Shown: piece by piece, positions 4,590 to 9,390 of the stretch
Layout: every line of letters begins with the position of its first letter
How positions within the stretch are numbered: position 1 is the stretch's first letter
Origin: Armatimonadota bacterium
GTDB lineage: Bacteria; Armatimonadota; Fimbriimonadia; Fimbriimonadales; Fimbriimonadaceae
Assembly: GCA_018268255.1 (NCBI GenBank)
Contig: JAFDWX010000003.1
Span: 209,740-273,739 of the forward strand
Direction: 5' to 3'
Length of the DNA stretch: 64,000 nt
Notes under the pieces: generated by a model
What the model was told of the DNA's origin: nothing
Databases searched by the model: none
Seen by the model: only the letters and a program-made list of their open reading frames with translations
Translations under genes and position numbers: made by a program

Positions 4590-5357
4590 ATGAACCGTGG
4601 AATTTACGGCGCTGCCGCTGGAATGACTGCTTGCCAGGACTGGATGGACGTTGTCGCAAACAACCTTGCCAACGTGAACACGACCGGCTTTAAGTCGGAT
4701 GGCGTGCAGTTCAGAGATTGGATGGAGCGCACGCTGCGCTCGGAAGGCGGTACCGGCCAAGAGATCGGCTCCATCGGTGCCGGCCCGGCTGTGAACCGGT
4801 TCTTCACCGATTTTTCTGTCGGCACATTGCAGGAAACCTCACGAAGCACGGATGTCGCCATCACCCAGCCCAAGGGTCTGTTTGCGGTTGAAGGTCCAAC
4901 TACGGGTGGCCCGCGCAACATCCTGTACACCCGAAATGGCAGCTTCCGCGTGGACGCCGAAGGCAAGCTGGTCAATCAAGATGGATACAGCGTCCTCGAC
5001 AAGAACCTCAACCCAATCCTGGTCGATCAGAATGGCGAGCAGCCGCAGATCGATGAACTGGGCAACGTCACCCCCAGTCGAGTTGATCCCACCAACCCGG
5101 CTCCCACCAGTTCCATCGGCGTGTTCGATGGCCAGTTCACCAAGCTCGGTGACAGTTACTACCAAGCGAGCACTCCGACGACCGTGCTCGATGCACCGCA
5201 GCTCAGATCAGGGGCCTTGGAAAACAGCAACGTCCAGGCAATCGAATCGATGATCCAAATGATCTCGCTGAACCGAATTTACGAGCTTTCCCAGAAAGCA
5301 GTGACCACACAAGACGAGCAGACAAGCAAGTTGCTGGATTCGATCAAGCCAGCCTAA
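4590..5357 (+). CDS. flgF: Flagellar basal-body rod protein FlgF
   Basis: The 255-aa protein begins MNRGIYGAAAGM and carries the rod/hook signature VVANNLANVNTTGFKSDGVQF. Its middle has the GLFAVEGP and YTRNGSFRVDAEGKLVNQDGY beta-domain seen in FlgF/FlgG, and its C-terminus has the conserved GALENSNVQAIESM helix region. It forms part of the proximal rod, exported by the flagellar type III system. It is the first gene of the operon, 33 bp before flgG. FlgF rather than FlgG is chosen because it is the shorter and more divergent of the two and precedes a textbook FlgG, the usual gene order. Confidence 0.92.
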   Translation: MNRGIYGAAAGMTACQDWMDVVANNLANVNTTGFKSDGVQFRDWMERTLRSEGGTGQEIGSIGAGPAVNRFFTDFSVGTLQETSRSTDVAITQPKGLFAVEGPTTGGPRNILYTRNGSFRVDAEGKLVNQDGYSVLDKNLNPILVDQNGEQPQIDELGNVTPSRVDPTNPAPTSSIGVFDGQFTKLGDSYYQASTPTTVLDAPQLRSGALENSNVQAIESMIQMISLNRIYELSQKAVTTQDEQTSKLLDSIKPA

Positions 5358-5390: not shown

Positions 5391-6179
5391 ATGATGCGAT
5401 CTCTGACTACCGCCGGAACCGGCATGATCACCCAGCAAACGAACCTGGATGTCATTGCCAACAACCTCGCCAACGTCAACACAACGGGCTACAAGGAGCA
5501 GAAGGCGGAATTCCAAGACCTGATGTACCAAACGTGGCGAGGTTCAGGCTCCCACGGCCAAGGGACCACGACCAACCCCGAAGCGTTGCAGGTCGGACTC
5601 GGTGCACGGCTGTCTTCCACAACGAGCTACTTCACTCAGGGGCCACTTCAAAGCACCTCGAACCCGTACGACATGGCAATCATCGGCGACGGCTTCTTTT
5701 CTGTGGAAAGGCCCGATGGCACCACGGCCTACACTCGAGACGGCAGTTTCAAAGTGGATTCCAACGGCCTTGTGGTAACCAACGATGGCTACCCACTCCA
5801 GCCCAACATCACGGTGCCCACCGAGGCGACTACGGTTTCCATCAGCCAGTCCGGTGTGGTGAGTGCGATGATTGCAGGATCCGACACTCCACAAGTTCTG
5901 GGGAACATCACGTTGACGACCTTCCCGAATCCCGGTGGATTGACTCGCGTCGGTCAGAACCTCTATGCGGCCGGCGGTGCAAGTGGCGACCCACAAGAGT
6001 TGGAACCTGGCACGGGCGGTGCGGGCACGATTCAGTCCCAACACGTAGAGGGCTCCAACGTGCAAGTAGTCGAGGAGATGGTGAAGATGATCCTCGCACA
6101 GCGAGCCTACGAAATCAACTCCAAGGCGATTCAGACGAGTGACGAGATGCTCGCGACCCTGAACCAACTCAAGAGGTAA
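5391..6179 (+). CDS. flgG: Flagellar distal rod protein FlgG
   Basis: This 262-aa protein starts MMRSLTTAGTGM, has LDVIANNLANVNTTGYKEQKAEFQDLMYQ, then a central beta domain (GDGFFSVERPDGTTAYTRDG, LGNITLTTFPNPGGL, GQNLYAAGGASG) and ends with VEGSNVQVVEEMVKMILAQRAYEINSKA. These match FlgG, the main distal rod subunit, at the usual length. The SD is within ACGAGGATAAC upstream. Only three bases separate it from flgA, whose N-terminus appears to repeat its central domain (see that entry). Confidence 0.96.
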   Translation: MMRSLTTAGTGMITQQTNLDVIANNLANVNTTGYKEQKAEFQDLMYQTWRGSGSHGQGTTTNPEALQVGLGARLSSTTSYFTQGPLQSTSNPYDMAIIGDGFFSVERPDGTTAYTRDGSFKVDSNGLVVTNDGYPLQPNITVPTEATTVSISQSGVVSAMIAGSDTPQVLGNITLTTFPNPGGLTRVGQNLYAAGGASGDPQELEPGTGGAGTIQSQHVEGSNVQVVEEMVKMILAQRAYEINSKAIQTSDEMLATLNQLKR

Positions 6180-6182
6180 TCC

Positions 6183-7445
6183 ATGACTGCCGCATTTCTT
6201 TCTGTTCTGATTGTTGTCAGCACGCCTCCAGCCGTTTGGCGAGTGGATGGCGAAGGCTACTTCCGTCTTTCGCGCGATGGACGTGCCGTGTATGCCAAAG
6301 AAATCAATCCCGCTGTTGTGAACGGCAAACTCGGCACGTCCGATGGCGCGACATTCCTTCCCGCGATTCAGTTTTCGTCATCGGTCGATTCTCTCGAGGT
6401 CGATCTGCAGGGGAATCTCTCGATTAGGGGTCAGAGCGGCACGATCGGCCGATTGGTGCTTGCAGTGTTTCCAGATGGTTCGCCGGTTCAAAAATCTGGC
6501 AACTACTACACGTCTTCGGAACGGCCTAGGGTGGTCAACCCGGGAGACGACACATTCGGCGTGATCCGCGGCGGATCGTCGGTAAAAGTCGTTGAGACGC
6601 CCAAACAATCCGAGAATACGGTGGTACCCCAGCCGCAGCCAAAGACTCAGCTTGAACCTGCTCAACCCAAGACCCCGACGCAAGAGCCCACCAAGGCCAA
6701 ACCGTCGACAACATCCAGCGCGACCAAGCAACCATTGGCCGACCGCCAAGTTGTCAGCGGGTCAGTGAGAGTGGTTCTCAAAGCGAAAACCGAGATCACC
6801 GGTGGGACGATCACCCTCAAGGAAATGGCCACGTTCGCTGGCGATCCAAAGCTCATCCAGGAGCTGGAAAGCGTCGATTTCGGCCTCATTCCGCCCATCG
6901 GTGTGGAACGGAAGTTGGATTTGGCAAGAGTCCGTGCGCGAATTCAGGCGTGTCGCATCGACATCCACAAAGTTGAGATCGAAATGCCCCAGACCGTTGT
7001 CGTGACTCAAAAGCACACAGAAGTCGATGCCACCGAGATCGTCAGCGCTGCTGTGATGGCTGCCGAGCAGTCGCACGGCAAATACGGGACGCTCAGTACC
7101 GAAACTCCGGTCACGAGCATGCAGCTTCCTCTTGGCGAGTACAAACTCGTTGCCGATCAGGTCACGGCATCGGGCTCAGGCTTCAAGGTCTATGTGTCCG
7201 CGTACGTGGACGGAAAACTGGTCCAACGCAAGCTGGTCTCCTTGCTCCGAACCGGCGTTCCTCAAGCGCTGAAGTTCGGGCAGACCGTCAAGGTCGTGTT
7301 GATCAGCGGCGGCGTTGCGATCGAGACATCCGGCCGAGTGACCCGAGTCGGCAAGACGAGCGAGGAAATCGAGGTGACTCTGCTCAGTGGCAAGAAATTC
7401 CTCGGGACCCAAACCGACGATGGAACGGTGGAGGTGAAAGTGTGA
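6183..7445 (+). CDS. flgA: FlgA P-ring chaperone with FlgG-like N-terminal domain
   Basis: The C-terminal two thirds (about residues 190-420) is FlgA: an SAF-type region with ITLKEMATFAGDP, LARVRARI, and a late segment with LRTGVPQALKFGQTVKVVLISGGVAIETSGRV. FlgA is a periplasmic helper for FlgI P-ring assembly. The protein is long because residues 20-140 look like the central domain of FlgG: GEGYFRLSRDGRAVYAKE, VDLQGNLSIRG, IGRLVLAVFPDGSPV, GNYYTSS and finally SSVKVVE, each alignable in order with FlgG next door. A Pro/Lys/Gln/Thr-rich linker (about 140-185) joins the halves. A short hydrophobic start (MTAAFLSVLIVVS) may be a signal peptide. The stop overlaps the GTG of flgH. The fusion is unusual; FlgA function is near certain, the role of the extra domain is not known. 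Confidence 0.88.
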   Translation: MTAAFLSVLIVVSTPPAVWRVDGEGYFRLSRDGRAVYAKEINPAVVNGKLGTSDGATFLPAIQFSSSVDSLEVDLQGNLSIRGQSGTIGRLVLAVFPDGSPVQKSGNYYTSSERPRVVNPGDDTFGVIRGGSSVKVVETPKQSENTVVPQPQPKTQLEPAQPKTPTQEPTKAKPSTTSSATKQPLADRQVVSGSVRVVLKAKTEITGGTITLKEMATFAGDPKLIQELESVDFGLIPPIGVERKLDLARVRARIQACRIDIHKVEIEMPQTVVVTQKHTEVDATEIVSAAVMAAEQSHGKYGTLSTETPVTSMQLPLGEYKLVADQVTASGSGFKVYVSAYVDGKLVQRKLVSLLRTGVPQALKFGQTVKVVLISGGVAIETSGRVTRVGKTSEEIEVTLLSGKKFLGTQTDDGTVEVKV

Positions 7446-8047
7446 AAAAGCTCGTATTAGCAAGCCTGATGCTCGCAGCCGTCGCTGCCCATGGCCAGGT
7501 TATCGACAAGAACTACGACGGTACGTTGGGTTCGCTATATTCGGATTCCAAGGGCAATCCGTTTACTGATCGGACTGCTCGGGGCGTGGGCGACATCCTC
7601 ACGATCATCATCAACGAGGCCACCAAGGCAACGTATTCGGCTTCGACGACCGCGTCGAAAACAGATTCAAATTCGGTGGGTGTGCAGCTCTTTAACAAGT
7701 TGCTCGAACGCCTGATTCGACCTTGGTCCACGAGCGGATCCAGTTCCAATAGTGGTTCTGGGACAAGCAACCGGACAGGACAGGTGACCGCCAAGATGAC
7801 TGCGATTGTCAAGCAGGTGATGCCCAACGGCAACCTTGTGATTGAGGGCACTCGCACTGTGGTTGTGAACAAGGAAGTCCAAACATTCAAGATTTCCGGC
7901 GTGGTTCGAAGGGACGATGTCCGAAGCGACAACACCGTTCTCAGCGAGAACATCGCCGAGGGCGACATCCGCATGGAAGGGAAGGGGTTGATTGCCGATA
8001 GACAGCGGCGCGGCCTCCTGACACGCGTTTTGGAGTGGCTTTTCTAG
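7442..8047 (+). CDS. flgH: Flagellar L-ring protein FlgH
   Basis: FlgH builds the outer-membrane L ring of the basal body, which implies a diderm envelope. The 201-aa protein has SLYSDSKGNPFTDRTARGVGDILTIIINE and, later, GQVTAKMTAIVKQVMPNGNLVIEGTRTVVVNKEVQTFKISGVVR (split here by eye into the family's blocks) and the end SDNTVLSENIAEGDIRMEGKG. The GTG start overlaps the flgA stop. The N-terminus is a signal peptide (MKKLVLASLMLAAVAAHGQV) with no lipobox cysteine, whereas the well-studied enteric FlgH is a lipoprotein. Identification is secure; the missing lipidation site is notable. Confidence 0.95.
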   Translation: MKKLVLASLMLAAVAAHGQVIDKNYDGTLGSLYSDSKGNPFTDRTARGVGDILTIIINEATKATYSASTTASKTDSNSVGVQLFNKLLERLIRPWSTSGSSSNSGSGTSNRTGQVTAKMTAIVKQVMPNGNLVIEGTRTVVVNKEVQTFKISGVVRRDDVRSDNTVLSENIAEGDIRMEGKGLIADRQRRGLLTRVLEWLF

Positions 8048-8173
8048 ATGAACTACCGGAGGATGCTTTTGAAGATGGTGAAATCTTCCCGGAGACCCAC
8101 GTCCCTGTCGAGTCTGCGAAAGGTGACTCAAACCAAGAGCATCCCGCGGAAAGATGAGGTGAGCAGTAAGTGA
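8048..8173 (+). CDS. Possible 41-aa basic small protein between flgH and flgI
   Basis: An ATG follows the flgH stop codon directly (8048) and opens a 41-codon frame whose TGA (8171-8173) overlaps the GTG of flgI as GTGA, the same overlap seen at flgA-flgH. The product starts MNYRRMLLKMVKSSRR and is rich in Arg, Lys and Ser. About three quarters of its third codon positions are G or C, like the neighbouring genes. A GGAG at 8032-8035 could be its SD. No homology is recognised. It may be a real small protein or a translation-coupling device for flgI. Confidence 0.4.
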   Translation: MNYRRMLLKMVKSSRRPTSLSSLRKVTQTKSIPRKDEVSSK

Positions 8174-9390
8174 ATCTCAAACGTACTTTTTCAACGGCTC
8201 TCTTACCCGCCCTCGTGAGCCTCTCGGCATGGGGTCAGGCACCTGCAAGCAATCCGGCGGCCAAACCGCCCGCTTCTGCGACAGACACCGCGGCGAAGAA
8301 AGTCGCTCCACCGGTTCGGCTGAGTGGAGACCAAGTCGAGCGTGAAGGGATCGAAGTGAGGATCAAGGATATCGCTCGGTTCCGTGGCGTGCGGGGCAAC
8401 CAGTTGCTGGGCTATGGCCTGGTTGTTGGCCTCGCTGGCACGGGCGACTCGAACAAGACTCCCTTTACCGCCACGCTTCTTTCCAACGCCATGAAAAAGT
8501 TTGGAACTTTGGTGGATCCAAAAGGTCTTCAGGCCAAGAACATCGCTGCTGTTGCTGTAACAGCCGAGCTCCCGCCCTTTGCGACTCCTGGAAACTCGAT
8601 TGAAATCACGGTTCAGAGTATTGGCGATGCCAAGAGCCTCTATGGAGGCACCCTCCTTCAGACACCACTGTACGGGCAATCAGATGAGGAGCATGCAGTG
8701 GTCGTTGCCCAAGGACCGATCAGTGTTGGCGGCGCGAGTGCCTCAGGCGGTGGCAGCAGTGCAACGAAAAACCATGTCAACGCGGGAAAGATCCCAAGCG
8801 GCGGCATCGTTGAGCGCGCTGTTCCGTTCCAAATGGTCTTTGAAGGGAACAAGCTGTATTTGGAGCTCGATGACGCAGACCTGACAACCTCGCAGAGGAT
8901 CGCAGAAGCTCTGACGAAAAGGTTCCCGAACTACGTGGCGACGGCGGTTGACGGTGGAACCATCGAGATCGCTGTTCCGACCGACGCAAGTCCGGTCAAA
9001 GCCATGAGCGAAATCGAATCAGCAACGGTCTTTGCCGATATCCCGGCTCTGGTGATTGTGGACGAACGCACAGGCACCATCGTTGTCGGCGGCAACGTCA
9101 AGATCGGCCCAGCGCTGATTACTCGCGGAAGTATGAAGGTGAGCATTGCTCGTTATCCCGTGATCAGCCAGCCTGCTCCGCTGAGCAATGGCCAGACCGT
9201 GGTCGATAGCGAATACGATGTCGCCATCGAGGAAGATCAGGCGAAAGTGGGCCAGTTGCCCGCCTATGCCACGCTCGCAGATCTCGCCAAGCTTTTCGAC
9301 GCTCTCCAAGTGAGCGCACAAGACGTCATTGCGATTCTCCAAGCCCTGAAGGAGCAGGGAGCGTTGAAAGCGCGAGTCAAGATGCGCTAA
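8170..9390 (+). CDS. flgI: Flagellar P-ring protein FlgI
   Basis: This 406-aa periplasmic ring protein has a signal peptide (MNLKRTFSTALLPALVSLSAWG), then a roughly 40-residue Ala/Pro-rich stretch that is longer than usual, then the FlgI core: VRIKDIARFRGVRGNQLLGYGLVVGLAGTGD, AKNIAAVAVTAELPPFATPG, GGTLLQTPLYG, GGIVERAVPF, LVIVDERTGTIVVGGNVKIGP and the C-terminal TLADLAKLFDALQVSAQDVIAILQALKEQGAL. It starts with GTG preceded by GAGGTGAG. FlgA (upstream) is its assembly helper. Its stop overlaps the flgJ start as TAATG. Confidence 0.96.
   Translation: MNLKRTFSTALLPALVSLSAWGQAPASNPAAKPPASATDTAAKKVAPPVRLSGDQVEREGIEVRIKDIARFRGVRGNQLLGYGLVVGLAGTGDSNKTPFTATLLSNAMKKFGTLVDPKGLQAKNIAAVAVTAELPPFATPGNSIEITVQSIGDAKSLYGGTLLQTPLYGQSDEEHAVVVAQGPISVGGASASGGGSSATKNHVNAGKIPSGGIVERAVPFQMVFEGNKLYLELDDADLTTSQRIAEALTKRFPNYVATAVDGGTIEIAVPTDASPVKAMSEIESATVFADIPALVIVDERTGTIVVGGNVKIGPALITRGSMKVSIARYPVISQPAPLSNGQTVVDSEYDVAIEEDQAKVGQLPAYATLADLAKLFDALQVSAQDVIAILQALKEQGALKARVKMR

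Follow-up and report, generated by a model that had tools for sequence, protein, structure and literature searches.

How the chaperone FlgA delivers its client FlgI to the rod, and when it releases it, are matters not yet settled (PMC4895218). We analyzed a flagellar operon within a stretch of 64,000 nucleotides (the window) of a Fimbriimonadaceae (Armatimonadota) genome of 3.19 Mb, in which FlgA bears a domain of the very structure that its ring encircles and is without the domain proposed to find the wall. This rearrangement is a natural experiment and poses a testable question about how the P-ring is placed. The targeting step becomes open to test by offering a single purified domain three candidate partners. 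Among the results listed by a literature search, there was no paper on a FlgA-FlgG fusion.

Organization of the flgA locus

The ORF located between flgG and flgH encodes the P-ring chaperone FlgA, which by analogy would act in P-ring assembly. The gene order flgF-flgG-flgA-flgH-flgI is that of a diderm flagellar operon and is kept in relatives, where flgA, like known flgA genes, lies beside flgG, flgH and flgI. The features of the locus are the following:

4590..5357, + strand: flgF (TIGR02490, 2.4e-45)
5391..6179, + strand: flgG, distal rod protein, intact (TIGR02488, 3.9e-102; phmmer to Salmonella FlgG, 8.1e-77)
6171..6176, + strand: AAGAGG, probable ribosome-binding site of flgA from the sequence, within the last flgG codons
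6183..7445, + strand: flgA, ORF of 420 aa starting with ATG, made of signal peptide, FlgG-D1-like module, linker and FlgA without D2
6183..6233, + strand: Sec-like signal peptide, residues 1-17, a hydrophobic N-terminus immediately preceding the module
6234..6578, + strand: FlgG domain D1-like module, residues 18-132 (profile, BLASTP and fold matches)
6579..6755, + strand: Pro/Thr/Lys-rich linker, residues 133-191 (low model confidence)
6756..7016, + strand: first FlgA domain, residues 192-278 (3g74_F, Z 10.2, on model residues 192-278)
7017..7259, + strand: FlgA D1-type domain, residues 279-359, abutting D3 with no D2 (SAF/beta-clip) between
7260..7442, + strand: FlgA D3 beta-barrel, residues 360-420 (PF13144; 3vjp_A, Z 9.3, on model residues 361-420)
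7442..8047, + strand: flgH (PF02107, 1.2e-48)
8170..9390, + strand: flgI, P-ring protein and FlgA client (PF02119, 2.3e-113)
8536..8538, + strand: FlgI Lys equivalent to Salmonella Lys63 (role from PMC8298488)
8632..8634, + strand: FlgI Lys equivalent to Salmonella Lys95 (role from PMC8298488)

The hydrophobic N-terminus is common to relatives, some of them having a basic n-region (MKTLLLSLLVVPALA, MRFLALLTLVLASVVA), and the linker is highly variable in length, being almost nonexistent in some. The stop of flgG and the start of flgA are separated by 3 nt. An in-frame flgG/flgA arrangement was considered as a readthrough signal and rejected, as 17 of 36 fused loci are in frame with no pattern.

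The N-terminal module is a homologue of FlgG domain D1

An earlier note on this DNA, made from its letters, had claimed that residues 20-140 resemble the central domain of FlgG in order, and several comparisons bear this out. BLASTP aligned the N-terminal 162 aa with the FlgG encoded next to it at E 3e-7; identity was 28% in 137 columns, and the order was kept. With the N-terminal piece as query, the NCBIfam FlgG profile TIGR02488 matched residues 20-131 (E 1.4e-7), while Pfam LlgE_F_G_D1 matched residues 21-80 at 7.7e-4, under its gathering cut-off. A profile built from 29 related N-domains found Salmonella FlgG structures in the PDB at 8.5e-14, aligned to FlgG 95-210. The comparison of predicted structures proposed in the same note also gave a FlgG-like fold: in the model of the protein (m48ab1e8c42df; mean pLDDT 85.6, block means mostly >90 in the module), residues 13-132 superposed on the FlgG crystal fragment 6jf2 (FlgG 88-218) with Z 15.4 and rmsd 2.7 Å over 120 residues. 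FlgE D1 was nearly as good a structural match as FlgG D1, and residues 18-132 have the D1 domain of the FlgE/F/G rod-hook proteins. Chance resemblance was rejected on the basis of the BLASTP result against the own FlgG, the PDB profile match and the fold superposition; the fusion of a FlgG-D1 homologue to FlgA is real, and we consider its architecture as near certain. One detail of the early alignment was lost: the pair SSVKVVE/SNVQVVE lies past the end of D1, is not kept in relatives (SGTAKAEE, FGEGKAAV and others) and is probably due to chance.

The module shares with FlgG D1 (6JF2, 7CBM) a common fold over 120 residues, 24-25% identity and the same core glycines and prolines. Unlike FlgG, it has neither D0 helices, as no Pfam match to Flg_bb_rod or Flg_bbr_C was found in the ORF, nor the L-stretch (FlgG residues about 46-65), the alignment beginning at FlgG residue 88; moreover, it stands behind a Sec-like signal, whereas FlgG is a substrate of flagellar type III export. 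D1-D1 contacts are few in the rod and joining is done largely by the L-stretch (PMC6681337); therefore, the module should not polymerise and, with D0 and L-stretch missing from its sequence, would be unable to build a rod.

FlgA of this order is a shortened lineage without D2

Salmonella FlgA consists of D1, D2 (a beta-clip) and D3, of which D3 binds FlgI and D2 has been proposed to target peptidoglycan (PMC4895218). According to the earlier note, a Pro-rich linker leads here to a normal FlgA; the linker is indeed present, but the FlgA is not normal as D2 is missing. D3 was recognized by PF13144 at residues 360-419 (25.2 bits, above the cut-off of 23.8), by the TIGR03170 flgA_cterm profile over the same residues (30.6 bits, under the equivalog cut-off of 54.65) and by 3vjp. 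The PF13144 match covers only profile positions 63-122, and no SAF match was found in the window FlgA. The structure of T. maritima FlgA (3frn) aligned with model residues 195-420 (Z 7.9, rmsd 10.2 Å). Results were similar for the order as a whole: the three FlgA of the order that were tested gave the D3 part of PF13144 and no SAF match, while the two tested from outside the order gave a full-length PF13144 match together with a SAF match. In the profile alignment, most FlgA from outside the order have some 45-70 additional residues at profile position ~167, the D2 site, and none of those examined from the order has them. The absence of D2 is thus order-wide and identifies a shortened FlgA lineage rather than another family.

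Like Salmonella enterica FlgA (3TEE, 3VJP) and T. maritima FlgA (3FRN), the window protein is a Sec-exported P-ring chaperone with a matching D3; it differs from them by the extra N-terminal FlgG-D1-like module, the Pro-rich linker and the loss of the SAF/beta-clip D2.

The fusion is old and conserved

The distribution of the module was established from 291 Armatimonadota genomes and 113 genomes of the order, with totals counted by hand from both tables. The module was present in 70 of the 72 Fimbriimonadaceae (family f1) genomes with FlgA, in 5 genomes of family f5 and in 1 of f3; it was not found in families f2 and f4, nor in the FlgA examined from Armatimonadota outside the order. This survey of FlgA architecture, suggested by the earlier note, shows that the module is not general to FlgA N-termini, and a match common to all of them was rejected, since among the FlgA examined it is limited to three families of one order. 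A single-genome annotation or assembly artefact was also rejected, as the fusion occurs in 76 genomes of the order. The conserved [VI][DE]GxG[YM]LRF motif was sought in 84,980 genomes, which gave 15 relatives, all titled Armatimonadetes, Fimbriimonas/Fimbriimonadaceae or Chthonomonas. The fusion is carried by Fimbriimonas spp. and by the complete genomes Uphvl-Ar1 and Ar2, which have been described as likely motile (PMC5629041).

On the FlgH+FlgI tree, the presence of the module requires three changes, one gain and two losses, which by parsimony supports a single old gain, most simply placed before the f3/f5/f1 split. Since f2 and f4 are also without D2, the loss of D2 most simply predates this gain. 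The two losses correspond to L066 (f5) and L101 (f1), where FlgA was kept; L015, sister genome of L101, has the module. In the domain tree, all modules fall into a single clade (SH-aLRT 99) with a long stem, on the FlgG side and apart from FlgF. Derivation from FlgG is supported by this clade and by FlgG being the best solved match; FlgF, forming a separate clade, was not supported as a source. A partial duplication of flgG joined to flgA, as the earlier note had it, is therefore right concerning the FlgG ancestry but not if the source is taken as recent and from the own genome: recent duplication of the own flgG was rejected, because the single long-stemmed clade does not join FlgG of the same families (the stem placement being unsure). 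The rearrangement is old and conserved in Fimbriimonadaceae and near relatives.

Moreover, GYLRFxRxGRxVYAK is conserved across the module family, and dN/dS in two informative close pairs was about 0.07 for the module and 0.10-0.12 for the FlgA part. By these two pairs, the module is under strong purifying selection.

A possible role in targeting FlgA-FlgI to the rod

The module is near-neutral compared with the acidic FlgG D1, with a net charge of -0.75 versus -6.0 for FlgG D1 of the order; when the two are paired by genome, the module is the less negative one in 33 of 34 cases. It has frequently acquired basic residues at FlgG positions 104, 111, 172 and 200, and D117, G118, N180, G183 and N190, invariant or nearly so in FlgG, were lost. 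In its chemistry, the module has moved away from the rod and is no plain rod copy. Considering that the rod surface is acidic and that P-ring assembly is electrostatic (PMC8298488), this shift toward basic would favour contacting the rod over imitating it.

We prefer, as a reading that is quite possible although we stop short of calling it probable, that the module is a targeting unit that places FlgA-FlgI at the rod/peptidoglycan site, with the acidic distal-rod surface as its presumed preferred partner. Before Fimbriimonadaceae and its two sister families diverged, a D2-less FlgA of their ancestor would have gained the FlgG-D1 module once (the order of events following from parsimony), so that the exported module sits between signal peptide and mature FlgA. 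D3 would hold FlgI as in Salmonella, and the module on its variable linker would act as an address tag bringing the complex to the site, where its new arginines may contact the acidic distal rod; it would take over from the lost D2 the localisation that has been proposed as that domain's task. We favour such a tag because of the homology and fold, the conservation and low dN/dS, the absence of D2 with D3 kept, and the charge shift set against an acidic rod. It has to be considered that peptidoglycan targeting by D2 is itself a hypothesis. The module is also not essential, as L066 and L101 lost it with FlgA kept and f2 has neither the module nor D2.

AmpG-type permeases with a related domain as an insert

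The module profile also matched a muropeptide permease of the AmpG family, both in the own genome, at E 6.2e-9, and in the genomes G008 and G128:

G000:C6:222550-224505 (L119 2045-4006), - strand: AmpG-family permease with FlgG-D1-like insert, own genome

Permeases of this type with the insert were also found in L120, L121, L125, L127, L130 and others. The host belongs to the AmpG family by NCBIfam TIGR00901 (2e-36 to 2e-43, with scores under the subfamily cut-off), and AmpG structures superpose on its model with Z 41; the fold search of this model returned transporter folds only among the matches listed, the insert's own fold being outside its reach. In a viral fold library, a single match fell under 0.001, a long protein that bears the name FlgG fragment. 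The insert, a beta-domain between TM5 and TM6, occurs in about 20 Fimbriimonadaceae, while others do not have it. Judged from the MFS plan, with motif A in loop 2-3, its loop would be periplasmic. Of these about 20 inserts, nine reach 2e-6 or better with the module profile and one is weaker (1.4e-3), the rest being recognized by alignment only. They belong to the same domain family as the FlgA module, grouping with the modules at SH-aLRT 99 and nested inside them in the best tree, although an independent FlgG origin was not rejected by the AU test (p 0.35). The two cases differ, as the host is a transporter and not a flagellar protein, and the insert is shorter and without the FlgA-type arginines. 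In G128, neither a match for FlgI nor a FlgA module was found, its lone FlgA-profile match (E 1.8e-7) fitting the AmpG insert; with no FlgI match, the insert there cannot act on the P-ring.

From the permease copy, it seems that a domain of a rod protein is able to function apart from the flagellum. The copy also argues against a tag that docks on the rod, since in a genome without FlgA and FlgI the rod is unnecessary for whatever action the domain has there. It is conceivable, if rather doubtful, that the domain is a mobile periplasmic module, grafted from the rod on FlgA after D2 loss and then copied into the muropeptide permease loop, serving a flagellum-independent recognition of peptidoglycan. 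We also judge it unlikely that it is in essence a wall-binding unit for peptidoglycan or muropeptides, replacing D2 in FlgA and, in AmpG, occupying the periplasmic loop: the AmpG-type host, the TM5-TM6 position, the grouping of inserts with modules, the G128 case and the peptidoglycan binding proposed for D2 (PMC4895218) would all suit this explanation, but the module has no known wall-binding motif, the inserts do not keep the FlgA-specific arginines, and the AU test allows them an origin of their own.

Rod-like residues retained in the module

In Salmonella, FlgG D109 and D154 face FlgI lysines 63 and 95, without which the P-ring does not assemble efficiently (PMC8298488). FlgI of the window has both of these lysines, and in fused lineages the equivalents of Lys63 and Lys95 are Lys in 26/30 and 23/30, respectively. 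The module is acidic at the D109 equivalent in 26 of 36 cases and at the D154 equivalent in 23 of 36. These retained acidic turns, read from the alignment, would fit a rod-like face, and better so if turned to FlgI than if used by a tag that docks on the rod. The module could then turn this acidic face toward the belt of lysines on the inner side of FlgI, keeping FlgI monomers assembly-ready but uncommitted until the real rod displaces it, and the acids persist in the module though FlgG of the order has mostly lost D154 (acid in 7/39). We nonetheless find this improbable, since the net charge moved by ~+5 toward neutral, arginines lie beside the D109 turn (104, 108, 111) and at 200 near E203, whose equivalent is mostly Leu, and the D-G and E-G turns may persist for fold reasons. 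The charge shift, the lost FlgG-conserved residues and the AmpG-type copy in a genome without FlgA and FlgI argue against a simple rod mimic.

Still less probable is a passive fusion, in which a beta domain that folds well but has no partner of its own acts as spacer or stabiliser of exported proteins, as might be thought from its two losses, the very variable linker and its tolerance in an unrelated membrane protein, because a dN/dS this low and the residues of GYLRFxRxGRxVYAK kept across the family speak against it.

Other observations on the flagellar genes

The D154 site of FlgG, described as highly conserved and FlgI-facing in Salmonella, is mostly Asn, Ser or Thr in the order (f1 and f5, for example in the window at 5391-6179); it is Asp in 16/18 other Armatimonadota. 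FlgH of the window (7442-8047) is without a lipobox cysteine, which by a simple pattern, with some false hits, is missing from FlgH in 42/48 loci of the order and in 18/20 outside it among Armatimonadota. From this pattern, the L-ring protein FlgH may perhaps not be a lipoprotein in Armatimonadota. In f2, the cluster is split and flgG is not beside flgA in some genomes, as in G041:C1, where flgA lies at 797 kb and a flgG-like gene at 2,079 kb. Finally, FlgI of the window has about 40 Ala/Pro-rich residues between its signal peptide and the conserved mature start (8170-8355).
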